Shown piece by piece: positions 12,035 through 56,942 of a stretch of DNA of 64,000 nucleotides. Source of the stretch: Agelas oroides (lineage: Eukaryota; Porifera; Demospongiae; Agelasida; Agelasidae); assembly GCA_949130485.1 (NCBI GenBank), contig OX422185.1:17735353-17799352 (forward strand), given 5' to 3'. The translations under genes were made by a program, and so were the position numbers. Position 1 is the first letter of the stretch. The number at the start of each line of letters is the position of its first letter. A model generated the notes under the pieces. That model saw only the letters and a program-made list of their open reading frames with translations. It was not told where the DNA came from and did no database searches.

Positions 12035-12259
12035 TCAAAATAGATGTGTTGCATTTGTTGGGCCATGGCTTGCATTACAGGCTGGGTCATTTGAAATGGT
12101 ACAGTTTGGGCGAATTGGTGTAACGTGATGGTTCTCGGTTGGTTGCTCATACCAGGCAAAAATATCCGTGGTGACGCACTGGAAGAAGAGGAAGGTGCAC
12201 TGGACAAAGATATACCACATCATGTTGGCACCAAGTGCACCACGGAAGAACCAGAATAT
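12035..12259 (-). CDS. Exon 5 of the minus-strand membrane gene
   Basis: 74 codons and a TGA, after the acceptor ccacag. It starts [20 protein letters not shown] and aligns without gaps to the partner's last exon (about 10 of 40 identical, including W, IFV and TDI). It then extends into a Cys- and sequon-bearing tail absent from the partner. Confidence 0.8.
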   Translation of the reverse strand: MFWFFRGALGANMMWYIFVQCTFLFFQCVTTDIFAWYEQPTENHHVTPIRPNCTISNDPACNASHGPTNATHLF

Positions 12260-12373
12260 CTGTGGAATGGATGGAGTTAACAGTATAGATAAATGAAATT
12301 TTTATTTTTACAGACAAATATAACCTTTTCTTTCTATAATATAGATAGGTAGATAGGTAGATTGATAGATAGG

Positions 12374-12413
<40 letters not shown>

Positions 12414-12470
12414 CAGATAGATAGATAGATAGACAGATAGATAGATAGACAGATAGATAGATAGATAGAC

Positions 12471-12514
<44 letters not shown>

Positions 12515-15500
12515 GGGTGTATATGTGATAGAAATTGTATTCCTCTGTGTATTTAGACCACATGGCTAAGTACTTTATTATCCAGTTGATATTTCTACAA
12601 CAGTATTGTCCTATTCCCGTGCCGTGCAATATCACACGATATTGCACGGGTAGTTATTGCACGGGTAGTTATTGCACGGGCCCTGAGGCTATATATGCAC
12701 GATATCCTAGCAACCAGCGTGCGCTTTAATTAGAACCAGTGCGTTCGAACGGCGAGTTACTCGGGACTTTGTGGGAGAAGAGACACGACGCTGTTGTGGT
12801 AATGGATAATAAATACTTTATTACACTCGTTAGCGTGCATATCGCGGTTATTGCACTCGTGGGCTGCATTTTCACTCGCCGTGTATTGCTGCACTTCATA
12901 GATGCACGAATATCAGATGAGTATATGAGTCCTCCCCTCAGTAGTTTTGTGCCCAGGCACGAGACTACACCCTTAATGACAGTTCAGCAATACAGCACTT
13001 CAAATGAAGGGATCAAATGGCAAAGCTGTGAGATAAGGGACGAAAAACCTGTTGCCATGGTGATGGCTACCAAAAGCGACATTGATGCTGGGTAGCCATC
13101 ACTATGGTAACAGGTTTAATTTTGAGACGTACATCGAGGGGGGTCTAGGAGTGCATTACTTAGTTAACAAATATAGGAATGTTGGCTACCAGTTACGGCA
13201 GGTCTTTCTCTGTACACACTTCTCGCAGCTTTGCAGCTTACGTAATTGTTGAGAAACAGTTACCAAAAGCACTGGACTAACACACAGCTGAATAGTACTT
13301 TTAATGGCAATGTTTCAAATGGTCTGTGCAGCTCTTTGTAGATGAATGATTGATGAATGCAGCACACAACGTGTAGGTTGTCATCACTTGTAAGAACAAA
13401 TGAGTAAGAATGGAAGCACAAGGGGAGGCCTATTTTTAAGGGAGATGTGGTTCCTTGATTGTACATGGATAAGGACAACCTTATAAATTAGGACATTTGA
13501 ACAAATCCCTGCTCCTTGTGTTGTCCCCTTGCCCAGCTGGACACTTGTTTTTGTGTCTTCCTAGTATAGCTTAATCTCGTTCCCAGACCCCACCCTTTCA
13601 CGAAGAAAAACGGTCTGGTGAACCAAGTCAAATTTCTTGGGCACTTTTGCGACGGTGTCACCTAGCAACGTTCAAAACATTTTACGCCAAACCTGCTCAA
13701 AAAAGGTACAGATACCCAAGTAGAGATTTTAAAAATCTGTTGTAAGGGAAGTGCTATGTAATAATTACCAATCTCGCAATCTCATTGGTCCTCCTAGATT
13801 GAAGGTTTTAGTTGGTAAGGAAAAGAGTGTCACTTCAGAGGAATCTGGAAATCTAGAAATCTAGAGGCTATGGAGTGGCTCTCACAATGCTACCTAGATT
13901 TAGCAGACACAGGAGAGAAAGATCATGGGGATCTGGAAACTTAGATGCTATAAAATGACTTCAAGTTGACACCTAGATCAAAGTAGGCAAAATGAAAATT
14001 AGCAAAAACTGGAGTAACAGGGAATATACCGTAGTGATATCTGAGACATGTGCACTGAGTGATTCCATTGATAGCAGCCTTTCAACACATAGAAGTATTA
14101 TCATGCAACTTGCTTTTCATGTGTGCCAATAGGGAATAGCTATGATCTCACTATTGTAGTTGCGTATAGGCCTAGATATTATACAAAGTCACCCACTATG
14201 TCCTTTCAAGAGAAATTCCAATGTACACAATAAATCCATTTGTAGTGTCAGTTGCCTTGCATGTAATGACCAAGTCAACAAAAGGTCCCTAACTCAACAT
14301 TAATTTGGTAGTAGCTAATAGCCAACAAGAACTCCAAGATAAATTAGAAAGCAAATAAGTGAATATTAAGCCTTGGCAAATTATGCTAGCATAATTTTGA
14401 GAATAATAGGCATTACTTAAAAGCATAAGAGAAATTATGCTGGAATAATAGGTATAAATATCTAGACCTATGAGAGTAAGTTGCTATACCATATTTGTTC
14501 CCAGCTTGCCCAAATTTTTGAAGCTCACCCGATCACTGAAATTAACATAGTCCATGTGCATTCATTAGCTGTTGCAAAACTAGTACCTTTCCTTTATACT
14601 AGCATGGAAACCTTGTGACATATGTAGCCTCATTCCCAGGTTGGGGGCGTGAGAGCCTGGGAATGAGGCTAGTGATAGTTGTCCCTATTCTGTAATGCTA
14701 CAATACACTGTATATGCAAGAAAAATAATGCAACATTGAAAAACATAATTCAGAAGATAGGGTCACTTTAAAAGCATAAATCATGAGCAGAAGGGAATAG
14801 AATAATTTGTCAATAATTTGTCAAGGGATATTGTTTGAGACAGTTGTTCTTCTGGCATTGTGATAGAGTAACAAGATTTATACCAGACAAATTTTGATCG
14901 GCAATGTTAGCCTTGTTCCCAGGCCCCGCCCAGCTTTCCACTGATTGCAGTACGGCATGTGGGGGGGAACCTGGGAACGAGGCTAAGGCAATGTTTCGAC
15001 TGCTGTGTCACGATCTTTATGAGGTACCAATGAACACAATTTCATAGAAAATAAGTATAAACAGCGGTAAACAAAAACAGTCTTAATAACAGCGGTAGAC
15101 ACAAACAGTCTTAATAACAGCAGTAAACAAAAACAGTCTGTTTACAAGTGAATGGAATACTGAAGACGGCAGGAGGTCTTACATGATGATACTTGTGTAT
15201 GTACGCATGTACTGCAAGCAACGGAAAGCTGGGCAGGGTCTTAGAACGAGGCTATTGAGTATATATTATATTACTTAATTATGTATTTGTGTTCATGTGG
15301 CAGCTGCATTTGCGTATAATTACCATATTAGTTCATAGTACTTAATGTATTGGTGTATTGGTGTATATATGGCAGCTGTATTTGTGTTACCATATTAGTT
15401 AAGGTGGCGGGTAAGCTACCACACAAGCGCAATAATTGTTTCCGGTTTACACCCACCATTGTACAGCTGGTTTTTCTTTTTGAATGAAGCAAATCACTGT

Positions 15501-18500
15501 AGCAGCTGCTTCAGTAGCTTAATATCGAAGAGCTACCTAGCCGTACAGCCGTACTACAAGCGACAAAAGCATGAAGGAAACCCTGAGAAGTTTCTACGTC
15601 GTCGATCGCCGTACATCAATGGCCACACCCACCGAGAAGGCCAGCTGTACTTAATGTGCATATGTGGCAGCTGTATCTGTGCATGTACTGTGCAGCTGCA
15701 TTTATGTGTATGCAGCAGCTGTTTGTAGTGGTCACATAATTAGAGACAGCTATTCACAACTGTCAAAAGGAGGAATGCAACACTTACACTGAATGCATCA
15801 CTTCAAAGCTTAAAGACAGCAAACAACCTGAGTAATGGAGGAAGTCAGCCCTATTTGTGTTTATGTGGCAGCTGCATTTATGTATCTGAGTTACCATATT
15901 AGTTCATTTGTGCCTTACTTAATGTATTGGTGTATACGCAACAGCTGTATCTGTGCATGTGACTTGTACTGTGCAGTTGTATTTATGTAGCTGTTTGTAG
16001 TGGTCACATAATTAGAGACAACTACACACAAGAGCGCATAAGAACAGGCGGCTAGAGGAAGAGCGTGTAACTCCAATAGAAGCCCGTAGTCCGGTCAAAA
16101 TTATTGAACCATACTAAAAATAGAACACCCGGCACATGCTTAGCAACAATGCCTTACGTCTACACGTAGCTGCACAGTACGTGTTACTATTTTCAGTACG
16201 GTTCAATAATTCCGACCGGTTTCAAATTTACGGAGTTACATACTCTTCCTCTAGTCGCCCATTCTTATGCGCTCTTGCTACACCTAATAGCTAGCTTCAA
16301 AGACAGCAGACAACCTGAGTAATGGAGGAAGTCAGCCCTATTTGTGATCACACACCCCATAGTGGAAATTATGAGGTAGTTTACCTGCATCTGGGTGGGG
16401 TGGGAGGGTTTCATTAAAATTAAATACAGCTGCCACCTGACATACCACTTGGCTGCTTGCTGTAATAAATTATGAACAGCTAGCCTTAAATGGTGCCTAG
16501 CCATAGACCACACCTTAATACTTCCATTGAACCGTAGTTAGTTAGTAAACACTAAAAGTATACTAATTAAGGTTTTGTTGATTGTCAGCTGCTACTGGTA
16601 CCAGACGCATTTGTTAGGTTTATAAGTACCAAAATTGTTAAGTTTTAGATGTAGGTACCAAATGCATTTGTTAAGTTTTAGATGTACCAAATGCATTTGT
16701 TAAGTTCATAAGTACCAAATGCATTTGTTAAGTTCATAGGTACCAAATGCAGTTCATAGGTACCAAATGCAGTTTAGAGGTACCAAATGCATTCGTTAAG
16801 TTTAGAGGTACCAAATGCATTCGTTAAGTTTAGAGGTATCAAATGCATTTGTTAAGTTTTAGATGTAGGTACCAAATGCATTTGTTAAGTTTTAGATGTA
16901 GGTACCAATACATTTGTTAAGTTCATAAGTACCAAATGCATTTGTTAAGTTCATAGGTACCAAATGCATTTTGTTAAGTTTTAGAGGTGTCAATAGCAGG
17001 TACTGCTTTTACCAATTATGACTGTGAATGATAAAATTGGTAAATTTAGTACTTGCAGATTGCAGGACTTCATTAACTATAATATAAACACACTTATGAA
17101 GGCTGTTTACTTTTTCAAGAGCTACTAATTAGTGCTTTAAAGTTCTTGTTAATGATCAACTGCTATTGAGCACCTTCCTCCCCCACAATACCCTCAATGG
17201 ACTGTGGCCTTTCCCCTCTATTGATAACTTGACCAGTGAGCCAGGTCAGGTGAGTGTAATTAATGCTTAGAAATACTTGTATGAAAGACCCCCTTTGAAG
17301 AGGGTGGGGCTAGGGACTGTACCTCAAAATTCATTAGTTAATACTGCCTACTATAATGTTATTCAGGACATATATAACCCGTTACCTAGGCAACATATAA
17401 GAATGTTGCTCATATCTCTCTTGTACAGTGATGTTGCCTAGGTAACAGGTTATATAATAGTTAAATCCCTCCCTGGGGTGTGGTCTTGCATATTGGTGTC
17501 GGGCTACGCCCGACACCAATGTGTAAAACGACCACCCCCCAGGGAGGGATTTAACTATTACATATATAGTCCAAAATATATGTAATTAATATCAGTGGTG
17601 AATGCATTGCCTTTGGCTTCTGTTTAGTATAGCATAGTTACCACATTTCACTTACAAAAAAAAACAAACTCACACATTACTATACATTAATGGCTTCCAT
17701 ATATGAAAGTAGCTACCTTTTTTTTACACTGTTCCAATATCATATTGATGTGCAAGAACGTATTGACATGCCCCCTGCATTAATTGGATTCATGAACTTT
17801 TTCTAATCTTAGTCGCAACGTCAAGACGCTTCTTGCTGGTTGAATAACATTTGTGCCTTATGAATATTTTTTGTGAACAGCATGGTGGTGAATTCAGTGT
17901 TATGTAGAATTACACACTAACCGCACACAGACAAGAGAATGTACACTTATTAACAGCTTCACACACATAATGTTCGTAGAGTATTCATAATTCCCAGAAC
18001 TTTTTTCGCCTCACGCTATTTAGGGCATTAATCCCCAGTACCACAGTAAACTGTGCTATTGCCTATACCAGTTCTTAAATGCACAATGGATTCTGCAAGG
18101 TATTAAATATACCTTATTATTATCCAGTTGGTATTTCTACAACAGTATTTTCCTATTCCCGTGCCGTGCAATATCACACGATATTGCACGGGTAGTTATT
18201 GCACGGGTAGTTATTGCACGGGCCCTGGGGCTATATATGCGCAGTATCCTAGCAACCAGCGTGCGCTTTAATTAGAACCAGTGCGTTCGAACGGCGAGTT
18301 ACTCGGGACTTTGTGTGAGAAGGGACAAGACGCTGTTGTGGTAATGGATAATAAATACTTTATTACACTCGTTAGCGTGCATATCACGGTTATTGCACTC
18401 ATGGGCTGCATTTTCACTTGCCTTCGGCTCGTGAAAATACCACGCCCACTCGTGCAATAACTCGCGATATTGCACGCTAACTCGTGTAATAAGGTATATT

Positions 18501-21500
18501 TACACGAGTTAGCGTGCAATAACCGCGATATGCAAGCTAACGAGTGTAATAAAATGTTTATTATCCATTACCACAACAGCGTCGTGTCTCTACTCACACA
18601 AAGAACCAAGTAACTCGCTGTTCGAACACAATGGTTCTAATTAAAGCACATCATGGTTGCTAGGATACCACGTAGTTCCAGGCCGTGCAATAACACCCGT
18701 GCAATAACACCCGTGAAATATCGTGTGATATTGCACGGCACGGGAATAGGAAAATACTGTTGTAGAAATATGAACTGGATAATAAAAACCAGTATTTCGC
18801 ATGGTCAACATAATTCGTATTATTACCTGCGCAGGGCATATCAATACAATGTCAGGACAGTAAGTATTGCTTACATGTACAAGAAATGTAGCTACTTCCA
18901 TATATGGAAGCCATTAATGTTGCATTTCTTAGATTGTGCAAGGTATTGCAATTCGCTTCTGCGTGGGGAAATTAGCCGCTTCCCATATACTTTTAACTTC
19001 ACTTTGCTACTCATCTTGCGATGATTACGATAATTTCGGTGCTTCCACGGGTGTTTACGGTAATCTGAGAGCGGAAAAGGTATCCCAGTATTAACTAGAT
19101 AAGATCTTTCCTACTTCTGTAATTACAATAGCATGCACAACAATCCAATTATGCATACCATCAAATACGATATTACATTATTTGAACAAGGAAAGGACGG
19201 GGGTTTCCAGCACAATACATAATTTACACTAAGACTTGTAGTACTGCAAGAGTGCGTAGGAAAGGGGGGCTAGAGTAAGAGCGTGTAACTCCATTAGAAG
19301 TCGCAAACTGTACTAAAAATAGAACACCTGGTCACGTGCTGTAGCAACAATGGCTTCTGTTACGTAGCATGTGCAGTATGTGCGACTATTTCTAGTACTG
19401 GTGGTAAATTCTGCCCATTCTCAAATTTTACGGAGTTACATACTCTTACTCCAGTCACCTGTTCTTTCCTTATTGCACTACTGTTTAGGGGGTCCCTCGG
19501 CTTTTCCCCCAGCTTGGTGGTACCATAATTGGGGCGAGCCTGAGCAAGCCCCACACTAGCGTGACTGCATTGCGCACGCGTGTGTGTATGTTTGCTTGCT
19601 TGGACCGACCACTTACCGTAAATTTGAAATGAGCGCATTCAAATATTTCACGAAGATCGTCGTGCGTGAAGCATGTGAAGGCCAGTGGAAGGCTACTGTC
19701 AGAGTGCAGTGTCGGGGACCCGGAGCGAAGACGACTGAAGTTGAAGCACGCGTGGCACTGGTTTGTGCTTCTACCGACGACAGCAGGCCGCTCACAGGCG
19801 GTACAAATTTAATATGGACGGTGGTTGACTGCTGGGGTCAGCGCTTCAGGTAGCGGGCCATGCATAAACGGCACTCATAAACGCCAGAAATTTAGCTCAT
19901 GATTTCGGTGTAAAGCTTAGTCCATGCATGTGTAGCCACGTTAGCTGCCCTGGCTGGAGAAATGGCTGGCATATGTGATACTTATATTTATCTCTGGTGA
20001 AGACTTAGCTACTTATAAATTTAGCTTAACAGTCGACAGTGACAAATCCTGCTGTGTGCCATGGTAAAGTAGTAAATCAGCAGTTTGCTGCTTGCTCAGG
20101 CTCGCCCCATGATGATGAATCATCTCACTAGTGTAGATGTAAAATGACGAAAATCTGGGGAAAAGTCTGGATTTTTTTCCTGGGGGATGTAGATGCGTGC
20201 ATGGGTGCATGCGTGTGCTGGTGCACCCGCTAGGGTTTCGTAGATTTTAATAAAATTCTGGACATATTTAAGGACAAGAATCATCAGATTCAGCTAAAAT
20301 GCTGTACTTTGTTATTGTGTTGTATACTCTATTGTAGCTGTTGAGGCTATTATGACATCATAATTTAAGAATTTAAAAACATTTCTGGGGAGGGGAGGGA
20401 GAAATCCCAGTGCCCCCCTCCCCCTCTCTGACAACAACTTACACTTTCTTTTCATGCAGATTCATGTCAGCATATGTTGCAATCCTGGGTAAAAATATTT
20501 CCGTTGCATATTTAGATCACGTTGCTGTATTTGAAGCTCTATAGTGCAAACTTCCACTAAGGCGGGGCTCATACGCGCTGTGTGGGTACGTGAATACCTG
20601 ATCAATTTATGCAGCATGTATGGGCCCCACCCATAGTGGAAGTTCTGTGCTACAGCGCTTTGAATGCAGTAACACAACTGAAATTTGTGACAGACTGAAC
20701 GATGTTTGATTTGGCTGCCACATAGTTATTTGTTTTAATGAACGATGTTTGATTTGGCTGCCACATAGTTAATAATCCATATAATATTTATGTCACATCT
20801 GATTCCTTCCTTAAACCTTAGTCTCGTGCACAGACCCCACCCAGCTCACGCGAGGAGAAGGGGGTCTGGTGTCACAAGTCCAAATCCTTGGGCTTGCTCT
20901 ATCAAATTGCAGAGCGGCGTTTGTTGCCATAATGCGGAAGCGAGAATAAGTACCTCTACCAATTTGTAATTCTACACCAACAATTACAAGGCTTCAACAC
21001 TTTTGCGGATTCAGGCTTGTGTCACCAGACCCTTTCCTCCCCAAGAGTGCTGGATCTGGGCACTGGGCACCTAGTCTCGCGACCAGCCGGAAAAGCCTAC
21101 GGAAAATCCGTCTGGTAACGTAAGGCAATATTCTGGGGCTTTTCTACTTACGACGGAGTTATTTGAATGTGCCAATCAAATTGTAGCATGTCCAATTACT
21201 CGGGCGGCCCACTGGCGAACTAGCGCTTGTGCGGATGCTAATTGGTGATAATTAAGCCATTTAGAGGCGAGAACTTCCATATATGGTCAGCGCCGGCCAC
21301 ATTCAAACCCTGCTGACGTGTGCAAAAGCCCCAGAATCTTGCCTTACGTTACCAGACGGATTTTCCGTAGGTTTTTCAGCTGGTCACGAGACTACTGGGC
21401 ACCAGACTACTTGAACCCTGAGGGTGAATAAGTGAACCATTAGGTAAACTAATACTGAACTCTCAAGTGCCTGGGGTGCAGTTTAGACTAGTCATAATGT

Positions 21501-27500: not shown

Positions 27501-30500
27501 TGTACCAACAATTGAAAATCGCTCACCGCTGAAAACGGTCCCGAGGGCACTCGCAAAAGCGCTCGTATCTCGGAGAGTATAATAGGTATGAAAATCGGAC
27601 CTTTTGTAAGCTATATTAAATGGCCAGGAGAGCTAGGCAGCATTGGCTGCGTGTTCATAGCGTGTTCTCTACCGTTTGTACGTTTGTTCCCGCGAGGCCA
27701 TTTTTTTCCAAAATTGTACGCTTCATATTTCCCGTGGAATCTGAGCTTTTTTATTCTAGCTCGAGTATGTTATACTGCTGATTGTAATGTACTCACGCTG
27801 TGACGATCGTCTTGTAGCTCCACTTTGCCCCTATTTGTACCACAAACCAAAGATGGCCCATATCTGAACCTGAATCTTGCGAGCATGCGCTACCTCTACC
27901 ACCATACGAAGCAACCAGCAGAAATAACAGCGCCATGAACTTACAGTAGACAGATCTCTCAACACGCCGCGTAAGTATCGTCTCGATTAAGCTTGCTAAC
28001 TGGGAGATGCAGTGTTTGAAAGTTCAACGTGCGATGAGCTTATTACTTATTCATACCCGATTTGATGACGTCACGTGGTTACGCGGGTGGAATAAATTTC
28101 GAGGTCTGCGTGTAGACTGTAATATTACAAATACCGCACCACGCTAATTACAATAAGTGTAATTTACTTCCCTGAGCAATCTGATTGGTGCAGCATGCCA
28201 ATATGCTTTATACCGTATAGCGCTAAATTTTCGCGGGTCTTTAATTTTGCAAATTTTTAACCGTTCGCGAAATTATTTCAACGAAAAATGTTTACACGTA
28301 AACTACAGTTTTCACATGCAAGAGCGTCGATGGACAACATGCTGCCGAATCCACAAGGGACGCTCTCCAAAGAGATACCTTCAAGTAGGCATTGCTTTGC
28401 TAACAGCTGCAAGCTCGAGCACGGACAACGGTGTGACAGTGTGTATTAGATAGAACTTGCTTGTATGCCACGCCCATACTACATTACGTGTGCAGCATGT
28501 GCATAGTTTAGACAGCGAATTCGCGAAATTATTTCAATGAAATCTTCAAAAACCACCATTCGCGAAAATTTAGACCCTTGAAAATTTAGCGCTATACGGT
28601 AATTAGGCCCCAGTTCTCCTAGCATAGGTGTCCAAACTCTATTTTTCTGCGTGGTGCGAAAAATTTGGTTTCAGGTTAAGGTGTTGCAATCAGGCAGTAA
28701 TATTGAAATTACTTAATTCCGCCAATTGTTTAAGGATGTTTACATGTTGCGTTTTTATTGTGGAAGAGTGTCAAACCACATCTTCCTACTATTAACAACA
28801 CACACCTATTGGTAGACAGAATATGTTACATACGAATATGTAAGACCAAGGAACACATAGAATAGTCCCGCATAGAAGCTAAATATTGCCTATTTTGATT
28901 ACATCATCATGGTTGAAGACCACATCTTCCTACTATTAACAACACACACCGATTGGTAGACGGAATATATTACACACGAATATGTAAGACCAAGGAACAC
29001 ATAGAATAGTCCTTCTGTTTCTGGTCTTACAAGTCACTTGAAAACGACTAAGTCACAAGGCTTTTTAAAATGTGTTTCTTTTTTAGGGGGGGAGGGGGGA
29101 CTCAAGCGGAAAAAAAAAATCATGCCTCAAAATCAGATCCCCCCTTATGAAGCCTAAAAATTAAATTTCCTCAAGGGGGGCATGTTCCCGCCCCCCCCTA
29201 GATATTGGTGTTTCCATGGCAACAATCTTTCTTCCTTGCCCCACCCCCCCTGCTCCCCCCCTTTCAGTACACTCTGCTTATGCCCCTTTAACAAATGAAA
29301 ACCTGCAAGTATGGAAGTCAGGATAGTGGAAGCCACTGAGTGCAGGTTGTGTAAACACAGTGGTTTGTATACTGATTACACACCAGTGAAAAGTGACCCA
29401 CTAGCACACCAGAAACAGGAAATTAACTCTGTGTGGCCTTAATAAGGGAGGAATTTACTAAAGGGCTTCATGGGTGCACCTAGTCTCATTCCCAGGCCTT
29501 CCCACCGTCCAGTTTTCATCGCTTGCAGTATGCAAAAATGGAGGGGGAAGGCCTGGTATATTTTATCACGTGAATGACGTCAGTGTCTACCTAGGTAGAC
29601 AGAGGGAGGGAGGGACCCACGATAGCATTTCGCGCACACGTTCTTCGTTTTGAAACAGGAGTGGTACATTTTTCGCTTTGCAAACGTTTGAAACTCCAAC
29701 GCTTGGGGCAGAAACTACAAGATAAGGCCTCAAGCTCGTTATTTCGATCGGGGACCGCTCCCCCCCTCTGTCTATCTAGGTAGATACTGACGTCATTCAC
29801 GTGATAAAATGTATCAGCCTTCCCCCTCCGTTTTTGCTCCACTGTGGTGTGGGCACCCGAAGTCCCCCACCATTGGGTTAGTACCATAAAACCGGGATAT
29901 TAAGCACCGGTGCCTATTTTCGAAATTAGCAGACCAAATGGGTGCTTATAATAGTTGGGTGCTTATATTCATGGGGTGCTAATAAACTCATGTAAGATAT
30001 TATCCCGATTTCACGGTATATGATTTAAAATTCATGTGTATGAGTTCCACCCGTAATGGACTTTCGCCAATACAAAACTACAGTGAGGCAACTAAATTAT
30101 ATTAGTTCCGTGAAATATGCATGAGTGCGGATGTAGTTGCACAAGTTGGTTGTCGTAGCAACAACTTACCAACAGTAGGGTGACTCCTGTACTCACTGTA
30201 AACAGAAAGAGAGATTCATCATCACCATAGCAACAAACATCACCATAGCAACAAACATCTGGAGTGAATTCTGGTTCTACTAACATCAAATAATTTGTAA
30301 GGAAACAGGACATACCCAAGACTAGATAAAACCTGTTACCTAGGCAACACAAGCATATTTCTCTTCTACGTTGTTGTTGCCTAGGTAACAGGTTATATGA
30401 CACATGTAGTTATATCCTTCCCTGCTGGGGTGGTCTAGCTTGCACTACGCCTGACACCACTGTACAAAACGACCACCCCCCCCCCAAGGGAGGTATTACA

Positions 30501-33247
30501 TAATTATAGTATAACAAGAGTGCATAAGAACGGGTGGCTTGAGTAAGAGCATGTAACTCCAATAGAAGCTCATAGTCTGGTCAAAATTATTGAACCGTAC
30601 TAAAAATAGAACACCCTGTCAAGTGCTTAGCAACAATGGCTTATGTCTATGCGGCATATGTGCACGCAGTTACTTGTTACTATTTTTAGTACTGGTGGTA
30701 AATTCCGACCGGTTTCAAACTTTACGGAGTTACACGCTCTTACTCAAGCCACCCGTTCTTATGCCCTCAAACGTCTGTTGATCAGATATTTTTCCTGACT
30801 GGTGAAACTAATTGCCGAGCGCCTTAGCGCAAGGCTACTAATCATGCAGCGTAGTCAGCTCGCGTTTGTATGTATGTATATCCGTCACACTTTGATTACG
30901 TGGGCGCGGTTTCTGTGGTCTCGTCCCCAGACTACTAGCCACGTGGTACTGGTCCGACCAGGAGGCGATCGAAAGATCGTGCGCGTGCGAGAGCCGAAAC
31001 GGAGCAGGGGCCACATGGTACTGGTGGGAGCAGGAGGCGATCGACGTGTGAAAAAGATCGTCCGAGAGCCGAAATGGAGCAGAAGCAGTCAAAGCGTGTT
31101 CATGCTAGAGAGCGAAGACGGAAACAAAGGGACACTGCATCAGAAGAGAGTAAGGCAAAGGAGAAAGAGTCTGACAGATACTCGCATGACACTACGCTCA
31201 CTTCCTGAAACTCTTCAGACGACCGCTTTGCCATCTTCATCGCTCTATCTCGTCTCCAGCACCTAGCACCTACACGCTACACGTGGTTACAACGGATATC
31301 TACTTGCATATTTCCGGATATTCTTCTGCACGAGGCATACTCTGCGCATGCGTATTCCTAGTATAGTTATAATCTTTAGCTGCTGCTTAAGAGGATAATA
31401 AACTAAATAGCTATTTAATAAACAATAATAAAGGACTATAGTCCAACTTTGATTATCTGAACCAGGAAAAAAACGCTAGAATAATCAAGGGTTTGGATAA
31501 TTGAGGTGGACTGTATGTATTAAATAACTATTTAGTTAAGAAGGGGTTAATATAAACAAGCATTAATGGTACTCAAGGGGTTAATTGAAGTACTCACAAA
31601 TGAGATTAATGATGAGAAGAAAGTATCTAGGTTGATGGTATCTTATTCCACCTGCCAGACAGAATGCAAGTGCCAGCTGTGAGGGGGAGAGGAGGGAAGA
31701 AGGAGGGAGGAGAGGAGGGAGGGGAAGAGGAGGGAGGGGAAAGGGGAGAGGAGGGAAGAAGGAGGGAGGAGAGGAGGGAGGGGAAGAGGAGGGAGGGTAA
31801 AGGGGAGGGAGGGTAAAGAGGAGGGAGGGGAAAGAGGAGGGAGGGTAAAGGGGAGGGAGGGGAAGAGGAGGGAGGATAATGGGGAGGGAGGGGAAAGGGG
31901 AGGGAGGGGAAAGGGAAAGGAGAGAGGGGAAGAAGGGGAAAGGGAAAGGAGAGAGGGGAAGAAGGGGAAAGGGAAAGGAGAGAGGGGAAGAAGGGGAAAA
32001 GGAAAGGAGAGAGGGGAAGATTGAGGGAGAGAATAAGGAAAGGGGGGACCAACAAAGGGAGGGAGGGGAGGGGAGGGGAGGGGAGGGGAGGGGAGAAAGG
32101 TGAAGAGCTAACTCCATGTTTACTTGACTATTGTATTTCACGTGAGAATGTTGCTACAACTGTACACACATGACCTCTAAGGGTCAGATAACACAGCCAC
32201 TACATCATGATAACACTCACACACTGTCACATGACCCGCACTCACAGTTTCACAAACAACGGGTTAGCTTTGAACTCAGCTGTGTCATAGCTAATGTGCA
32301 AGCCAGCCTTGTTCGCAGACCCTGATTAGCTTTTCATTGCTTCAAGAACAAAACAGAGATAATGCCTGGTACATACATGTACATGTACATGTACGGGCGT
32401 AAAACTTGCTTGGTTTTAGCCTCGTTCCCAGGCTCCCCAGGTCCAGAACCCTTAATCACAGTTTCACAAACAAATGGGTTAGCTTTGAACTCAGCTGTGT
32501 TTTAGCTAAAGTGCAAGCCAGCCTTGTTCGCAGGCCATGATTAGCTTTTCATTGCTTCAAGAACAATAACCTGGTACATACGTGTATGTGCATCTTAATT
32601 CAAACTTGCTTGGTTTTAACTGAGAGGGATGCCACTTTTCAAACCACGATTGAAAACTTGGTCCAGTTCTATTCCAGTCGTAGTCTATCAAGCTAGACCC
32701 TCTCTCACCCTCCAGCAGGGTGAGAGAGGGTCTAGCGCACCAGTATTAGTCTTACATACTGAAGCCGAGGTGTTGCTACTGTCTCAAAATGGAACAGTAG
32801 GATTTGATTGGTCAGCATCTTAATAACATCTGCTAGACCCTCTCTCACTTTTCTGGAGGATGAGAGATGGTCTGGCTTGATAGACTATTCTGGTCCTAGA
32901 GAAGCTTTTATTGTGCACGATCAATTAGTCATGACCCCAGTTGTTTTAATCAGCAAAGGTCAATCACGTTCCTTCTCTGAAGTAATGTTCTCGATCTACC
33001 TAATGTGGTTACCATGGAAACTTACCACAAACATTATTGCCATTACACCTGTTGCTGATGCCAAGACAATTTTCTGTGCGTGTGTGTGTGTTGTGTGTGT
33101 GTGTGTGAGTGTGTAAGTGTGTGGGGAGAGGAGGGGGAGGGAGAGGGGTATGGAGGAGGGAGGAGTAGGGAAGGGAGGGAGAGGGAGGAGAGAAGGGAAA
33201 GAGAGGAAAGGAATTGAGGGAGTGGGAAGGAGAGGGGATAATAAGGA

Positions 33248-33291
<44 letters not shown>

Positions 33292-36200
33292 CAGAAGGTA
33301 CACGTAGCCCACACATAACCCAAGTCCCATGTTTAAGATTTGAAACAAATATTAGAGAGGGAGAGGTGATAGAGAGGGGCATGTGGGGAGGAAGGGAGAG
33401 AGAGGAAGGCAGGAGGGAGGGAGGGAGGGAGGGAGGGAGGGAGGTAGGGAGGGAGGGAGGGAGGAAGGGAGGGAGGAAGGGAGGAAGGGAGGAGGGAGGG
33501 AGGGAGGGAGGGAGGGAGGGAGGGGCAGAGCATGTGAGGAAGAAGGGAGGGAGGGAGGGAGGGAGGGAGGAAGGGAGGAAGGGAGGAGGGAGGGAGGGAG
33601 GGGCAGAGCATGTGAGGAAGAAGGGAGGGAGGGAGGGAGGAAGGGAGGGTCACATTGCATGTGAGAAAAGAGAGTAAGCAGGTGGGACACACACTGCAAG
33701 TGGAGAAGGAGGGGTTGCATACTACATGGAAGAGGAGATTAGGGGAGGGAGGGGGACACATCTGGAAAAGTCGAAGATGATTTATTATTCATTCTGCTAA
33801 ATTCCAAGAAAAGCACTTAGCCATGCCCGAGGCCTCCTCATCCAGCGTAAGGGACAAACCCTGGGACGAGGAGGACTCCATGTATGGCTAAGTGGTTTTT
33901 CTTGGAATGTAGCGAAAGATCCTGGAAAAAAATTGGGTTCCTGGAATTTTCATAAATATACATGCAGTCTAACGGAAGCAGAAATTGAAATTATTCATAG
34001 TAATGGAGTAATGGAGGAGGCACTGCAAGGTCGAGGAGGAAGGTGGGGGGAAGGGAAGGGGACACATTGCAAGGTGGAGATGGAGGAAGAGAGAGGGAGA
34101 GAGGGGGGTGATACATGTGCGGAAGTAACAAGTTGGAGATGTGGAAGGAAGGGGGAGGGGGAAGGGGAGGGGGAGGGAAGGGGGAGGGAAGGGGGAGGGG
34201 GAAGGGGAGGGGGAGGGAAGGGGGAGGGAAGGGGAGAGGGGGAGGGAAAGGGAGAGGGGGAGGGAAGGGGAGAGGGGGAGGGAAAGGGAGAGGGGGAGGG
34301 AAGGGGAGAGGGGGAGGGAAAGGGAGAGGGGGAGGGAAGGGGAGAGGGGGAGGGAAAGGGAGAGGGGGAGGGAAAGGAAAGAAAGAGGGGGGGGGGGGGG
34401 GAAGGGAAGAAAGAGGGGGAGGGGGGAGGGGGGAGGGAAAGGGAGAGGGGAAGGGAGGGGAAGGGAGGGAAAGGGAGAGGGGAGGGGGGAAGAAAAGGGG
34501 GAGGGAGGGAAAGGGAGAGGGGGAGGGGGAGGGAAAGGGGGGAGGAGAAGGGAAGAAAGAGGGGGAGTGGGGAGGGGAAGGGAGAGAAGGGGGAGGAAAG
34601 GGGGGAGAAGAGGGGAAGGGAGAGAAGGGGGAGGAAAGGGGGGAGAAGAGGGAAAAGGAGGGGGGTTGGGAAGTGGCAAAGAGGGGGTAAGGGGAAGAGG
34701 GCCTTAGAGGGGTGAGTGAGGGGGATGTTGAAGGAGTGCATACAAAGGAAGAGTGGAGAGGGAGGAGAGAGGGGGAGGGGGGGGGGAAATAGGGGAAGGG
34801 GCGGAGCAAGGAGGAGCGAGAAGACAGGATGTTTGAGTTGATACAAGGAGATAAGTTGTGTCCCACATTCCATACTGGACTGGACTGGAGTACATGACTC
34901 ACAAACCTTATAAACAGCTTGTGGGATGGCTATGTAACATCAAAGCCATGTGTGTGTGTGTGCATTCTAGGAAAAACCTAGCCTCGTTCCCAGGCCTCCC
35001 CCATGAAGCATACTTGGACATACCGGACTGGACTGGAGTACATGACTCACAAACCTAGCTTGTGGGATGGCTATGTAACTGGTATATAATCAAAGCCATG
35101 TGTGTGTGTGCATTCTAGGAAAAACCTAGCCTCGTTCCCAGGCCTCCCCCATGAAGCATACTTGGACATACTGGACTGGACTGGAGTACATGACTCACAA
35201 ACAGCTTGTGGGATGGCTATGTAACTGGTATATAATCAAAGCCATGTGTGTGTGTGCATTCTAGGAAAAACCTAGCCTCGTTCCCAGGCCTCCCCCATGA
35301 AGCATACTTGGACATACTGGACTGGACTGGAGTACATGACTCACAAACAGCTTGTGGGATGGCTATGTAACTGGTATATAATCAAAGCCATGTGTGTGTG
35401 TGCATTCTAGGAAAAACCATGAAGCATACAGAAACAGCAGACAAAGCCAAACCCTGCTGCTAAAGTGGAACGTATGGTCAGTTTGCTGAGATGAGCTATA
35501 AATTCAGCAGTGTGCTAGTCGCTCAGGGTCGCCTCATGACATCATAACAAAGATCTGCCTAGTAATGGTAATGCTTGTCCCCCCTCTACACCCCCCCTCA
35601 CCCCCTCACACCCCCACACCTCTGCTCCTGCATATGAACTTTGAGGGAAAGCCCGCAATGAGGAACAGACGTCGCTGCACCCTCAAACCCTTGTGTGCGG
35701 CATACATGTAATTGGCAAAGCAGCACACAGGAAAGACATGTACACAAAGAAGGCCAGCCCGGATAACGGATAATCCTATTTCCATCTGGGTCGAGGAGTC
35801 CACAACTCTCATATAGATGGTTTCCAAATGTCAATTAAGTGTCCTACTTCAGGAGAGCAAATGTGTGATCAAGAGGCAGCTGTACGGCAGACCTTTCACC
35901 TTGAGAGAAGCAGCTTCTTTTATCTTTCGGTACTAATGGTAAGGACTTGATGTAGCACTTACTAGCCTGTATTTGGTACACAGCTGCACTAACGACTCTT
36001 GCCCTCCGGAAGTGAGGCCATCTATACATGAAATCTTCACAAACCTAGCAACATACATATGTATACTAGCTTGAAATCTTGAACACCCTCAACTGAAATC
36101 TCTATCTCCGTTCCCAGGCCTTTGCATGCATATAAGGAGGGGGAAAGAGATTGGAGATTTTGTCTCACGCATGGTGATGTGACATAATGTCCAGTAGACA

Positions 36201-37683: not shown

Positions 37684-37947
37684 CTTCACAGAAGCTGTTC
37701 ACTGACTCAGAAATTGCAAAGTGCATGTGAAGACTTACAATAGCCACTCCCTTTTTCATTGAGCGCATACAAGGTATCCGTATTTTTCCGTAAACGTCTT
37801 AAAGTTGTCCGTAATTAACCGTATAGTTTCCGGATAACGTTGTCAATGTAATCTATATTTGGATACTATTGGGATATTTTTGCAACACGCTCTCGGGATA
37901 TTACCGTCTTTTCATGGTCTTGGATTGACAAACGCAGCCTTGGTAAA
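37684..37947. promoter_or_regulatory. 264-bp bidirectional promoter region
   Basis: The only DNA between the two divergent ATGs. It must carry both 5'UTRs and core promoters, unless further upstream exons exist. No TATA box is obvious. On the minus side an upstream ATG at 37724-37726 starts a 28-codon frame overlapping the main start; on the plus side a 4-codon upstream frame is present. Confidence 0.65.
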
Positions 37948-40900
37948 ATGTCAACATACGGTACTGTGGCGAGCGGTTCGGACGACAAGCAGCCGCTGTT
38001 TGCTGCCCCATCCGACGCTCCCACGCAGGAGCCAATATACCAGGAGAGAACGCAGACGAGAACTATGGTAAATGGACACATAATTTTTGGAAGGTTGAGG
38101 GGAGGGGAAGGAAAGGTTTAGGGTACACTTTGCAATTAGTTGATGGTTTGCAGAAGTAGGCCTATATTAGGGGGAGGAAGGAGACTAGTTTATATATTTG
38201 GTACAAAGCAGTTATCTAAATTCAAAGGGTAGTCACTCTATGTTTTGTGTTGAAGCGTTGCAACCGAGATTAAAATAGAATCAAGCAATCAAGGTTAAAG
38301 TGACCTCTAAATCAACCGATCAAGATGCAGGACTGCCATTTGACCTTCGAACCACTGAGAATCAAGCGATCAAAGCTTCGGAAGGGAATGGTCAAGTGAT
38401 CAAGCAGACTTTTTGTCAATTAAAAATCTTGATCGTGGTCACAAACGATTCAACAAGCGACGTATAAGTGGCTACTGTTTGCAATTGTCCAGATCTGCAT
38501 GGGGTTCTCAATGTACATATGCTGTAGCCTCATTCCCAGGCCTTGGTCACCGTCCAGTTTTTGATCGCTTGCAGTATGCAAAAACAGAAGGGGAAGGCAT
38601 GGTCCATTTTATCACGTGAATGACGTTTTGTCTACCTAGGTAGACAGAGAGCGGGAGGGGTCCCCCATCGAAAAAACGAGCTTGAGGCCTTATCTTGTAG
38701 TTTCTGCCCCAAGCACTGGAGTTTCAAATGTTTGCGAAGTGAAAAGTGTACCGCTCCTGGTTCAAAACGAAGAACGCGTGCGCGAAATGGACAAGGCCTT
38801 CCCCCTCAGTTTTGCACACTGTAAGCAATCAAAAACTGGACAGTGGGAAGGCCTGGGAACAAGGCTACACACACAAGGTGACATCATTTTTATTGCAGAG
38901 GAAGAGCGTGTATCTCTTGACACACTTTGTATAGACCTTATGCAATTGACGTCATTACCTCGCGTAACCAAACGTGAAATGGATAGTGGACGGAAATCCA
39001 GATACTATGCCGCCATTTTGAGTGGCAAAAATGACCTGTGTTCTATGGAGCGTAAGTACAGTGGAGCAGTTTGTGAGCTCCTTTCTCACCAGCATAGGAA
39101 ACGATTTTACATTTATACCCAGAATGCATAATGTCTCAACAGGACCTAACGGTCACTGAAGCAAACAAGCTTACCTGCATGTGTCATTGACGCAGTGAGC
39201 TCACAAAGTGCTTCACTGTACTTACGCTCCATAGACCACTGTCTTCCAAAATGGCGGCGTAGTGTCTGGATTTCCGTCCACTGTCCGTTTCACGTTTGGT
39301 TACGTGAGGTATTGCGTTTATACAGTATACTTGCCTCGTTCCCAGGCTCTCCCCTCCTGGGAACGAGGCTAATACTTACCTATGTTGTTTCTCTTTTCTT
39401 TTGCAGAAATATGTTCTTGGGGTGTTTCTTGCCTTTGTGATCTTCAATCTTGTGGTGAGTTATGAATAGGTAGCTGAATACCAAGAGCGCATAAGAACGA
39501 GCGGCTTGAGTAAGAGCATGTAACTCCAATAGAAGCCCGTAGTCCAGTCAAAATTATTGAACCATACTAAAGTAGATGTCATTAGGGCAGGTCAATTTAC
39601 AATGTGATATTTCACCATGGGCAAAATGTCAGTTGCCATGGGCAAAATGTCAGTTGCCATGGGCAAAATATCAGTTGCCAATGGGTAAAATATCAGTTGC
39701 CATGGGCAAAATATCAGTTGTCAAAGGTCACGGCTATAGAGTCCATGGGAGTGGCCATCCCTGGATCCCACCTCCTCACAATGTAAATTGACCTGCCCTA
39801 ATGACATCATGACCTTTCTGTAGTAGCTAGCAGGACAGCACTTTTGAATGCCCTGGAAGCTTCTGTGGTCATGGCACAACCTCAGAGGAGAAAGGTGTAA
39901 TCATCGTAGTGACATTTAGTGCAGCCAACTGGCAAACCAGCCACCCAGCTGACCAGCTGATCCACTACTTAAAGAGGGTCGTTGTGACACTTCTTTGCCT
40001 ACATTTTGCATGCAGCTGCACTGCATACTAACCCACGCCCCATGATAACCATCTATAGCACCAACCAAGAGCGCATAAGAACGGGCGGCTTGAGTAAGAG
40101 TGTGTAACTCCGTAAAATTTGAAACTGGCTAGCTTTTTCCCCCACTTTAGTATTGCAGTGTATGGACACCATTAGTTAATTGTTCACATTTTAATGATAT
40201 TCATAGTGATGAAAGGAAGTTGTGGCCACGCCCCTTGGTGGAATTGAGCTGTATGGCACTCTGTGGAGGTGGTAGCTAAACACTGCTCAGGATGGCTTGA
40301 AAAGTGTTAAAACAGGAAAAGGCACTTACGCTAAGGTGCCATACGTCAGCTAGCAGAGGGAATATCCCAAGATACCAATCCAGATCCTTGGTTTCTGATA
40401 CATGGTATTAGTCAGACCCCCCTTTCCTATTTGGAGTCTGGGTACGAGACTAGCAACTAGTGGGGTATGTGCTCTACCAAGAGTTCAGAGTGCTCTATAC
40501 CAGTATGACGTAGGCAATCAGCAGTGAATATGCTAAGCTGAGAAGTGGGCTTTAATTTGCTTTTCACTCAGCTAATTACATGTACACTAGCACCTACATG
40601 TAGAATGGCTTCATGTTAAGTACCTGCTAAGCATATTCACTGCTGATTGCCTACGACATACTGTCCAGATGGCATGTGTTGAAATACAATGAAAGTGTAG
40701 AAGAGAGATATGAGCAACATTCTTATATGTTGCCTAGGTAACAGGTTATATCAAACCATATGGGAGTCTACACTCTTACTGTTGCAGCAGATTGCCAAGT
40801 CTTGCAACAAGCACAGCTGCCAGTGGAAAACCACACAATTCATTTGTGTGTGATCATGAACTAAGGCTAAAGATAATATGTGGCAGTCACGGATAGAAAT

Positions 40901-42511
40901 TGAATATTATTCCATTGCGTATTTCGAGCACATCACCAAGTTTGATGCGCTGTAGCGCTGAACTTCCGCTAAGGGTGGGGCTCATACGTGCTATATGTAA
41001 ACGCATGAATATCACGAAGCGCGTATGAGCCCCACCCCTAGCGGAAGCTTAGTGCTACAGTGCGTCAAACTCGGTGATGTGCTCGAAATATGTGACGGAA
41101 TAATATTCGAATTCTATCCAGGACTGCCACATATGTGGTAAATCAATTGTGGTTTTCCACCGGTCAGCTTGCCTGTTGCAAGACTTGCTGTACATGTATG
41201 AACTCTTGGCTCTACGGAGCTCTAGCTGAGCGATGCTTAGGGAAAGGCTTGAAAAATATCGGAACAGTACTTACTACGGTACACTAAGGTGCCGTACGTT
41301 AGCTAGCAGTTAGAACTTGCTGCGATAGCCACTTGCTGTTGGTTTCTGTTACAAACTTACTCCCATAGAATTCACCAGAATTTTGGTCCTGCAATACAGT
41401 TCTACCCCACCAAGGGGCGTGGCTAAACGGCTGTGACCATTTGCTGCATAATTGATTTGTGTACTTCTTCTCTTGTTGCAGCTGTCAACAATTATGGTTT
41501 CTGTACAAGCAGCCCGGATAAATGGTCTTTTCGCACTGCTGTTGATTAGCTTGCTCTGTAAGTATGTGGGGAGGGAGGGAGGGAGGGAGGGAGGGAGGGA
41601 GGGAGGGAGGGAGGGAGGGAGGGAGGGAGGGAGGGAGGGAGGGAGGGAGGGAGGGAGGGAGGGAGGGAGGGAGGGAGGGGGAGGGGGAGGGGGAGGGGGA
41701 GGGGGAGGGAGGGGGAGGAGAGAGGAAGGGAGAGAGGAAGGGAGGGAGGGAGGGAGGGAGGGAGGGAAGGAGGGAAGAAGAGAGGGTGGGAAAAAGGAAG
41801 AGAGGGAGAGTGTGTAAGAAGAGGTGAGTGGAGGGAGAGAGGAGATGGTAGGAGGGGGTGAGGGCTGGAGGAGGGAGAGGGTGGGAGGAGAGAGAGTGGA
41901 AGAAGGGAGAGGGTGAGAGGAGAGAGAGGGTGGAAGGAGGGAGAGGTGGAAGGAGGGAGAGGGTGGGAGGAGAGAGAGGGTGGGAGGAGAGAGGGTGGGA
42001 GGAGGGAGAGGGTTGGAGGAGAGAGATGAAGGAAAAGAGCAGAGGTGAGGAGGGGGGGAGAGGCAAAGAAGATAAAGAGAAAGATAGAGGAGAGGATTTG
42101 CTGTCACGACCGTTTCTTTTGTTTCTTTTCTCAGCATTTGCACAAGTGGAAGGCTTTGTGGTGAGTGTAGTACACACAAGTTTAGTTCACATTGTCGTGC
42201 TGTAGTGTGAGTCGTGTGCTTTGCCTCTTCCTCCTCTTCCCTTTTCCCTCCCTCCCTCCCTCCCTCCCTCCCTCCCTCCCTCCCTCCCTCCCTCCCTCCC
42301 TCCCTCCCTCCCTCCCTCCCTCCCTCCCTCCCTTCCACCCTCCCACCCACCCTTCCAACACTCAAAGGTATTTTTCATATACAAAGACCACCTTAAGAGA
42401 AGCTACTTTTGGGCTATATTTGTGATCGGGATTGCCGTGGTCTTCGAGGCCATTGCGACTGACATCATTGTATTCACAGTACCAAGCGAAGCCCAACCTA
42501 ATAGTTCATAA
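37948..42511 (+). CDS. Three-pass membrane protein, 137 aa, 5 exons (plus-strand paralog)
   Basis: Exons are 37948-38067, 39407-39454, 41482-41557, 42135-42160 and 42368-42511. They total 414 nt with the stop, with phases 0,0,1,0. Splice sites are clean (ATG|gtaaat, cttttgcag|AAA, GTG|gtgagt, gttgcag|CTG, T|gtaagt, tctcag|CA, GTG|gtgagt, caaag|GTA). The protein has a 40-residue polar N-tail starting MSTYGTVASGSDDKQPLFAA. TM1 is about 42-64, KYVLGVFLAFVIFNLV onward. TM2 is about 71-95, GLFALLLISLL onward. A basic loop KDHLKR follows. TM3 is 103-128, with W105, IFV and T121-D122-I123. The tail ends EAQPNSS. Exon sizes, phases and the TM3 core match the minus-strand gene. Function is unknown; the tail lacks the partner's glycosylation sites. 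Confidence 0.85.
38525..38867. mobile_element. F2 composite element, close to the 29480 copy
   Basis: TAGCCTCATTCCCAGGCCTT, then TTATCACGTGAATGACG, then CTACCTAGGTAGACAGAGAG on the left, and GAAGGCCTGGGAACAAGGCTA on the right. The middle block (CTTATCTTGTAGTTTCTGCC) is inverted relative to 29480. In intron 1 of the plus-strand gene. Confidence 0.65.
38928..39330. mobile_element. Palindromic element with about 115-bp arms
   Basis: GTAACCAAACGTGAAATGGA and GTACAGTGGAGCAGTTTGTG on the left return inverted on the right (CACTGTACTTACGCTCCATA, CCGTTTCACGTTTGGTTAC). Confidence 0.7.
39331..39371. mobile_element. F2 short palindrome
   Basis: GCCTCGTTCCCAGGCTCTCC faces CCTGGGAACGAGGCTA. It ends 36 nt before exon 2 of the plus-strand gene. 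Confidence 0.6.
39482..39806. mobile_element. F1 half-copy joined to a GATGTCATTAGGGCAGG palindrome
   Basis: 39482-39571 is one F1 arm. 39575-39806 is a separate element with perfect ends GATGTCATTAGGGCAGGTCA, inverted at the right. Its interior repeats CCATGGGCAAAATGTCAGTTG about five times. Confidence 0.7.
40066..40131. mobile_element. F1 half-copy (other arm)
   Basis: CAAGAGCGCATAAGAACGGG followed by GTAACTCCGTAAAATTTGAA, the arm type opposite to that at 39482. Confidence 0.7.
40505..40656. mobile_element. 150-bp palindromic element
   Basis: GTAGGCAATCAGCAGTGAAT with ATGCTAAGC faces GCTAAGCATATTCACTGCTG and ATTGCCTAC. Confidence 0.65.
40876..41136. mobile_element. F5 element, copy 3
   Basis: A 260-bp near-perfect palindrome, ATATGTGGCAGTCACGGATA facing TATCCAGGACTGCCACATAT. 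In intron 2 of the plus-strand gene. Confidence 0.85.
41563..42080 (+). repeat. (GGGA)n array in intron 3
   Basis: Starts about 6 nt after the donor of exon 3 (plus-strand gene). About 130 bp of pure GGGA is followed by GGGGGA and GAGAGGGTGGGAGGA variants. Complementary to the CCCT array at 42247-42340. Confidence 0.95.
42247..42340 (+). repeat. (CCCT)n array in intron 4
   Basis: About 22 tandem CCCT units ending 28 nt before the exon 5 acceptor. With the array above it flanks microexon 4 on both sides. Confidence 0.95.
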
Positions 42512-53929: not shown

Positions 53930-55600
53930 TAATCAATGTCTCAATAATGAGGGAAAAAAAATCTGTTACCATACGTATGGTGATTGTGTTGAAGACATTC
54001 ATCGGCAAACGTTGGTTACCATTTCCTATAGCCAGCGAGGAAGCTGTATTGTATAAGAATAGCAACCATCCACACTTTGTTTCCTTATAAGGAGAACGAG
54101 TATATACATGTGGTTCAAACATTGTACAATAGCCAGAAACTGACATGCAATGTGGTAAGTAGCATTATGTACGTATTGCACAACTGGTTTTATTGGCTAT
54201 AGTTGTAGTAATAGTAGTTGTAGGGAAATCTCGGGCTAGAATAATTAATCAATTAATTAATTAATCGATAGTCATTAAATTGATTGCTATATAATCAACT
54301 TTTATCAATTTTAATAGGCATTAAATTTTTGCTGATGAACACCAGTGAACACTTAGATTCTACCTCTGGCAGACAAAATATTTGCTGTCGGAAAGTGGCT
54401 GCCAGCTACACCCAGTTAATTGTAATTACCATCTGTGGTCAATCAATTAATTTTATGGTACCGATAATGGGAATATATACTCAATTAGTATTGGTGATGG
54501 AAATCTATAGCCTAATACTATGTATATATATCACAGTAGCTTGTTGCCCTATTGTTAACTCTTCCACACACTTGTAAACTTAAGGTAAGTATGCTTAATG
54601 CATTAATTGTAGCTACTTTGGTGATATCCATAAAACCACCAATTTATTGTATGTTATCAACCAGTGTAGTATGCATGACTTGTGGTACTGATGCCAGATG
54701 TCTTGCGTGACTTGCAGTACCGGTATACTGATACGGATTCTCGTGTGAATTGTAGTAAAGTTTTGTCAACTGTTACTTACAAGGCTTTTCTTGATCCTGT
54801 ACACATGAGCTAAAAATTAGGTTAGTTAACTCCGGTGGAATGGGGGATGTGCCAAGCTGTAGGTTGACAATATTATACGTAGCTAGCTAGGTGTGGGTTC
54901 AGTTTTGTTTGTTGCCATTTTATTATTATTTTTTTTGTGGGTGTGTGTGTGTGTCATATGATATTGTGTGTGGGTTCTGGCCCTTGCAGTCTGTATGTTA
55001 TTGAACGATAATTTCATCATAAGGACAAAGTACAATTTCATTGACTCGATAATGCTGGCATTTCCTCCGTGAAGACTACACTCGCAACGTAGGTGTGAGA
55101 GCCTTGGATTGTATCTTCTAATAGAAGACATATACAGCACCAAAGTTGGTTCGGATTCTAATGCAACTTGCATGTTGCTGCATTTTTGTCAATTTGGCGA
55201 TACTTTCAAGGTATTCATTCACCCACCTGCAGTTCTGATTACTTACATTATATACTGTAGCTAAGTGGAAAGACTCAGACACAAAGATTGAGCAAACACC
55301 TTCATCTTCATCTCAGTAATAAGGGTAAAAAAATTTCCTTTGGGTCCCACACTCTCTATAGTAGCACTAGGGTTAGTTGCTCCAAGTGCAAATTTTAGGA
55401 GGTGCTGTCTGCACGTTTGTGTGTGTTACAGACCCCTTTCTGAATGTCCAGTTTCCTGGAGGTTAAATGGTAACTATAGACATCAGATTGGTTACATTCT
55501 TACTAGTGAATGTATTGTTCTTTGACAGTGCCAGCAGTAGTTCAGCGTCAGAGACATCTGTCACTGATTTTCAAATGTTCACTGCAATTGTAGATTGTTC
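53930..55600. other. AT-rich stretch, no gene seen
   Basis: A fragment of the F9 tail lies at 54660-54760 (GACTTGCAGTACCGGTATAC). A (GTGTGT) and T-rich run lies at 54920-54960. No exon pair with splice sites was found. Confidence 0.45.
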
Positions 55601-56861: not shown

Positions 56862-56942
56862 GGTCAGCAGCCGCCAGGAATTGAACTCAGGACATCTGGC
56901 TTGTGCAGCCAGTACTCTGCCACTGAGCTACGACAACCGGAC
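56862..56942 (-). mobile_element. tRNA-like SINE head or tRNA pseudogene
   Basis: On the minus strand: GTAGCTCAGTGGCAGAGTAC (A-box), an anticodon-like stem CTGGC/GCCAG with loop TGCACAA, then GAGTTCAATTCC (B-box). The loop lacks T33 and the T-stem pairs poorly, so it is not a working tRNA. A related but weaker copy lies at 58194-58262. Confidence 0.6.

Follow-up and report, generated by a model that had tools for sequence, protein, structure and literature searches.

Two head-to-head genes in the Agelas oroides genome, here called A and B, are very probably two diverged demosponge paralogs of TMEM243 (Pfam DUF2678). They lie within the window, the whole 64,000-nucleotide stretch of DNA that was analysed, and all coordinates below are positions in it. 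A previous reading made from the sequence only had described the pair and knew no family with this pattern. The second part of that reading is now superseded: rather than founding a new family, the two genes form a divergent side branch of one already known; they are diverged relatives of TMEM243 and keep most of its intron layout.

Gene models at the divergent locus

Gene A occupies the minus strand from 37683 to 12035 and encodes 157 amino acids in five exons; gene B, on the plus strand from 37948 to 42511, also has five exons and encodes 137 amino acids. The two genes are oriented head-to-head: the start codons, at 37683 in A and 37948 in B, are separated by 264 bp. Both start codons were recovered by a script that received the claimed exon-1 lengths as its only input, and they lie at the claimed spacing of 264 bp. 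Besides A/B, one other pair of starts within 700 bp fitted the lengths, 471 bp apart. The exons measure 96/48/79/26/225 nt in A and 120/48/76/26/144 nt in B, with intron phases 0,0,1,0 in both genes. The divergent arrangement first proposed is confirmed, and the exons were found at GT-AG sites with the proposed lengths and phases. The parts of the locus are as follows (P numbers designate the related proteins described in the next section).

12035..12259, minus strand: A exon 5, 225 nt including the stop; end of TM2, TM3 and a tail with three N-glycosylation sequons
30170..30195, minus strand: A exon 4, 26 nt, LSTGVTLLL; middle of TM2; LSTGVTVLL or LSTGVTGLL in P0001-P0003 (LSTGVTVLL in P0001)
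31598..31676, minus strand: A exon 3, 79 nt; end of TM1, loop, start of TM2
33026..33073, minus strand: A exon 2, 48 nt; start of TM1; gapless against P0001 and P0002
37588..37683, minus strand: A exon 1, 96 nt, 32 residues; predicted cytoplasmic N-terminus; N-termini of P0001 and P0002 match weakly
37684..37947, no strand: inter-start region, 264 bp; both 5' ends and any shared promoter would be expected here
37948..38067, plus strand: B exon 1, 120 nt; predicted cytoplasmic N-terminus with SDDKQPLF and EPIYQE (similar to QPLFGE of TMEM243)
39407..39454, plus strand: B exon 2, 48 nt; start of TM1
41482..41557, plus strand: B exon 3, 76 nt; end of TM1, loop, start of TM2
42135..42160, plus strand: B exon 4, 26 nt, SFAQVEGFV; middle of TM2; SFAQVEFFL in P0005, SFAQLEFFL in P0006
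42368..42511, plus strand: B exon 5, 144 nt including the stop; end of TM2, TM3, short tail

The exon-2 peptide of B is KYVLGVFLAFVIFNLV, and that of A has 16 residues. No gaps interrupt the alignment of the last exons through TM3, and W, IFV and TDI are common to both, in agreement with the initial description. Alignment of the A and B cores gave a score of 71, reached by 0/1000 shuffles (shuffle maximum 59), and the relatives of both align across the exon junctions. The proposal of a paralogous pair is upheld: the predicted genes A and B have conserved exons and share common descent.

The observed/expected CpG ratio is 1.17 in the 264-bp inter-start region versus 0.55 for the window. This value was rejected as a distinctive mark of the region, as 185/2638 sliding windows reach 1.17.

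Relatives of A and B in sponges

A protein search with A (E up to 1) retrieved four proteins from 32 candidates. The best, P0001, is the hypothetical protein GBAR_LOCUS10680 of Geodia barretti (47% over 97% of A, E 3e-37); the others are two JGI proteins from contigs of about 1 kb (P0002 and P0003, the latter lacking its N-terminus) and the partial P0004. With B, four proteins were obtained from 80 candidates: P0005, the uncharacterised LOC135332491 of Halichondria panicea (56% over 88% of B, E 2e-33), P0006 from a contig of about 1 kb, and the partial P0007 and P0008, which match B exon 1 with 98% and 93% identity and cover 29% of B. The open reading frames on the 1-kb contigs may be of transcript origin.

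P0001 and P0002 align gaplessly with A over the whole stretch that begins with exon 2 and ends with TM3 in exon 5. The same stretch of B is gapless against P0005 and P0006, which also match its exon 1, with gaps. Among the matches listed there was no named Geodia relative of B and no named Halichondria relative of A, and the protein searches found no other named species with relatives of both. If the assignment to TMEM243 holds, two sponge proteins filed as hypothetical or uncharacterised gain a family.

The partial P0004 continues beyond the position of A's stop (exon at 12035-12259), and the end of the tail may therefore differ among close relatives.

Homology to TMEM243

In a Pfam search with A, DUF2678 (PF10856) ranked first of 24736 families (E 0.0081, 16.6 bits), residues 33-117 matching positions 28-112 of the profile colinearly and over equal lengths. 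The same family came first of 24736 for the Geodia protein P0001 (E 0.00062, 20.2 bits) and second for P0002 (E 0.043, 14.2 bits), after a plant domain (E 0.018); both matches are colinear. All three scores (14.2-20.2 bits) are under the curated DUF2678 cut-off of 27.8 bits. The Pfam search with B, P0003, P0005 and P0006 gave no DUF2678 match; the best matches were an unrelated O-antigen polymerase for P0005 (E 0.0029) and DUF2070 for B (E 0.18). Database proteins that carry DUF2678 are named transmembrane protein 243.

The relationship was further assessed by profile-profile alignment with hhalign, whose E values are pairwise and not database-calibrated. Probabilities were 93% for A-TMEM243 (E 2.9e-7), 93% for B-TMEM243 (E 4.1e-7; 85% in a separate script) and 90% for A-B (E 1.6e-6). 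As a control, alignment columns were shuffled separately inside hydrophobic and non-hydrophobic segments, using one alignment per pair. For each of the three pairs, 0/150 shuffles reached the observed score, which compared with the shuffle maximum as 46.0/30.3 for A-TMEM243, 38.5/21.9 for B-TMEM243 and 44.7/29.5 for A-B. Pfam's own ranking was the sole control for unrelated families. Because B does not match DUF2678 in Pfam, its link to TMEM243 draws on hhalign, on the position of the last intron and on its kinship with A.

The signature WYR-G-LEPKFR is invariant in 21/21 aligned TMEM243 proteins (21 of 106 matches were used) and is absent from A and B. Where the hhalign pairing covers invariant TMEM243 residues, A keeps W, G and L (3/8) and B keeps L (1/13). 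At the N-terminus, EPIYQE of B and QPLYSE of P0006 pair with QPLFGE of TMEM243; for A, MAFFT and hhalign choose different stretches as the counterpart of this motif. Since A and B fail both the Pfam cut-off and the signature, we refer to them as TMEM243-like, that is, homologous and built on the same frame but diverged, and not as TMEM243.

TMEM243 (also C7orf23 or MM-TRAG) resembles A and B in its three membrane helices, its size and the colinear profile match, and shares with them the position and phase 0 of the last intron. Exon 2 is of similar short length, though its boundaries match less exactly, and the length of exon 3 deduced for vertebrates is close to the sum of exons 3 and 4 in A and B. 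A and B differ from it in lacking the signature, in having one extra phase-1 intron and in scoring below the Pfam cut-off, and A also in its sequon-rich tail.

Three other identities were discarded. UQCR10/QCR9, considered for the last exons, was not among the Pfam matches; TMEM230 was also considered and dropped; and a match of WW_USP8 to the last exon of A (E 0.22) was attributed to chance.

Comparison of intron layouts

Intron positions were compared in a joint alignment of 13 sequences built with three MAFFT modes. In 3/3 modes, each of the four introns occupies the same column in A as in B. The last one (phase 0, between TM2 and the WYR motif) also shares its column with sponge TMEM243 and with vertebrate TMEM243, as deduced from the isoforms below, in 3/3 modes; introns 1 and 2 lie 3-4 columns from those of TMEM243 in all three. 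In the hhalign pairing to TMEM243, intron 2 of A coincides exactly and its intron 1 is one codon off, and those of B are 3-4 residues off.

The vertebrate plan was deduced from exon-skipping isoforms. Isoforms P0101 and P0112 are shorter by 17 residues (51 nt); in P0089 and P0094 the missing segment, immediately ahead of IYWYR, comprises 35 residues (105 nt). This alignment comprised 11 of the 106 matches, ten of them picked for shortness; 4/10 lose exactly 17 or 35 residues, and the other six short isoforms lose different parts. From the skipped segments, exon 2 of the vertebrate TMEM243 gene would measure 51 nt and exon 3 105 nt, and its last exon would begin at the same place as those of A and B. 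In A and B, exon 2, bounded by phase-0 introns, is 48 nt long versus 51 nt in vertebrates, and exons 3 and 4 together amount to 79+26 = 105 nt in A and 76+26 = 102 nt in B, versus the deduced 105 nt. The 79/26 split is therefore read as a 105-nt exon cut by a phase-1 intron. Among the genes examined, this extra intron, located in the second membrane helix, occurs in A and B only.

Relatives far below the Pfam cut-off would thus still be recognisable with the help of intron positions. By keeping the TMEM243 gene skeleton and dropping its signature, A and B would also separate what the three-helix frame needs from the role of the signature.

The ordinary TMEM243 gene of the same genome

A DUF2678 profile search of the genome (259 Mb, 141 contigs) identified one place above the cut-off, on the minus strand of contig C21. 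Its joined exons encode a protein of 139 amino acids that scores 84.4 bits against DUF2678 (E 7.4e-24) and is, over 90% of its length, 63% identical to a TMEM243-like protein of Halichondria; the closest named relatives are from Halichondria and Amphimedon. Four exons make up this gene. Its three introns, all of phase 0, correspond to introns of A and B, exactly for the last one and with an offset of 0-4 positions, depending on the alignment, for the first two. Relative to the vertebrate gene, exon 3 has 17 additional codons, a loop with two cysteines between TM1 and TM2. Unlike A and B, it carries the full WYR-G-LEPKFR signature.

Another three DUF2678 matches in the genome, with E values of 2.4 to 9.4, were treated as noise; one of them, L005, was inspected. 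When the genome was searched with the full A, B and TMEM243 proteins, the best candidates scored all lay in the proteins' own genes, apart from one weak match to A (E 0.59) on contig C14. Scans of a collection of bacterial genomes and one of viruses yielded no relative, as expected.

Long purine/pyrimidine tracts (GGGA-type and relatives) at 31681-34660 and 41569-42353 flank exon 3 of A and exons 3 to 5 of B. A similar tract precedes the last exon of the ordinary TMEM243 gene.

History of the gene pair

In a maximum-likelihood tree of 18 proteins, the branch separating A and B from TMEM243 had a support of 100/100. Very long branches lead to B and TMEM243, and A was recovered as one group in 44% of the bootstrap trees, so the tree gives no date for the duplication.

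The long branch between A+B and TMEM243 would also fit the alternative that A and B are a separate sponge membrane family, their likeness to TMEM243 being a convergence of hydrophobic three-helix proteins. B's missing DUF2678 match, the score of A under the cut-off and the absence of the EPKFR signature from both agree with it as well. We consider this quite improbable: DUF2678 ranks first of 24736 models for two A-family proteins, shuffles that preserve the hydrophobic segments reach the observed scores in 0/150 cases per pair, the last intron matches that of TMEM243 in position and phase both in this genome and, judging from the isoforms, in vertebrates, and the exon sums of 105 and 102 nt compare with 105 nt.

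With A and B taken as TMEM243 paralogs, the shared extra intron and the tree are most simply explained by a single TMEM243 copy that diverged and was later duplicated in inverted orientation. This copy would have moved far from its parent in sequence, with one phase-1 intron in TM2 distinguishing the two. The inverted duplication would then have left A and B back to back, in what is the probable order of events, and the ordinary TMEM243 would have remained elsewhere in the genome. The presence of an A relative in Geodia and of a B relative in Halichondria suggests that the A-B split is old among sponges.

Membrane topology and possible function

Hydropathy profiles contain three peaks in A, B, P0001, P0002, P0005 and P0006, in keeping with the three membrane passes first predicted for A and B. 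A structure model of the A family, computed for P0001, contains three helices at low confidence (mean pLDDT 56), and that of TMEM243, computed for P0009, three long helices and one short one (pLDDT 78). Fold searches against the PDB returned nothing usable.

The tails of the A family contain 3-4 N-glycosylation sequons in 5/5 proteins, the P0004 tail having been trimmed at the end of its A-aligned part before counting. Most shuffled tails contain fewer, the sequon count being reached in 103, 29, 1, 11 and 23 of 5000 cases. In the B family, whose tails are short, a single sequon stands at the very end of B, and P0005 and P0006 have none. We read the sequons of the A tail as marking an N-glycosylated luminal or outer tail, which implies an N-in/C-out orientation and a secretory-pathway location for A. 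Each of the two proteins would be N-in/C-out with three helices. The tail of A would be glycosylated on the luminal or extracellular side, placing its action in the secretory membrane system and not in mitochondria, and B would probably be devoid of an N-glycosylated tail of the A type.

The predicted cytoplasmic N-terminus of A contains PPEY. NDFIPs are three-pass PPxY proteins, and A could accordingly be imagined as an NDFIP-like adaptor whose cytoplasmic PPxY recruits NEDD4-type ubiquitin ligases, an identity consistent with this motif and with the three hydrophobic peaks. It appears very improbable: PPxY is found in 1/3 A-family proteins that have an N-terminus (A itself, not P0001 or P0002) and in 0/3 B-family proteins (B, P0005 and P0006), and no NDFIP model figures among A's listed Pfam matches. 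The SDDKQPLF stretch of B, for its part, is one that we take to resemble acidic-dileucine sorting signals.

Returning to A and B as relatives of TMEM243, we tentatively propose that they could serve as accessory subunits or adaptors, small membrane proteins of the TMEM243 kind, with one bidirectional promoter possibly driving both for joint use. A more elaborate and rather unlikely scenario is that the duplicated TMEM243 became a two-subunit device, in which A with its glycosylated outer tail and B with its sorting-type N-terminus, expressed from one promoter, would form a heteromer whose role, at the cell surface or in endosomes, would be specific to sponges. The biological stakes are modest until expression or partners are known.

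For TMEM243 itself, a review describes an expression that rises with paclitaxel resistance and is repressed by A2M; lowering TMEM243 resensitises resistant lung-cancer cells and reduces their proliferation and invasion (PMC12841848). The passages of that review on these effects give no molecular activity for the protein. Among the titles listed in literature searches, none deals with the molecular function of TMEM243 or with a sponge relative.

Reliability of the exon models

Several exons of A and B adjoin simple repeats, in line with the suggestion that standard gene finders would miss both genes; in relatives the suggestion is contradicted, as NCBI lists proteins related to B from Halichondria panicea and to A from Geodia barretti. 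Open 26-mers flanked by AG and GT number 37 between exons 3 and 5 of A and three between those of B, and a 26-nt exon by itself proves nothing about a gene model. The 26-nt exons chosen are supported because near-identical residues are encoded in the relatives. That the models are chance products, short open AG-GT stretches strung together by eye, is hardly credible: short exons are cheap, with 37 candidates for the 26-nt exon of A, and the last intron of A spans about 18 kb, but proteins from other sponges and from further sources have closely similar residues in the same order for exons 2-5 of A and 1-5 of B, which in effect refutes this explanation for exons 2-5 of both genes. Exon 1 of A is the least certain part of the two models and could still be wrong.

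Other features in the window

Within the 18-kb intron of A, the segments 12640-12983 and 18182-18720 have TATTGCACGGGTAGT units in common, together with similar open frames and a high CpG content in both, and look like a mobile element.

Two open stretches at 973-1948 on the plus strand (MASESLRTTTPADNDT...) look like the N-terminal portion of a coiled-coil protein; Pfam gave no match for the first and, for the second, only generic matches of coiled-coil type below the cut-off. An open reading frame at 8326-8682 on the plus strand ends in a C-x2-C ... H ... C pattern (CRSCSKMYPFNLEGFERWFDHVRFCG) and has no Pfam match; it is perhaps the last exon of the same coiled-coil gene.

Tandem arrays are present at 34871-35418 (146-bp units, 3.7 copies) and at 55594-56227 (178-bp units, 3.6 copies). 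ARAGORN identified a tRNA-Val (CAC) at 56865-56938 on the minus strand, where Rfam also calls a tRNA.
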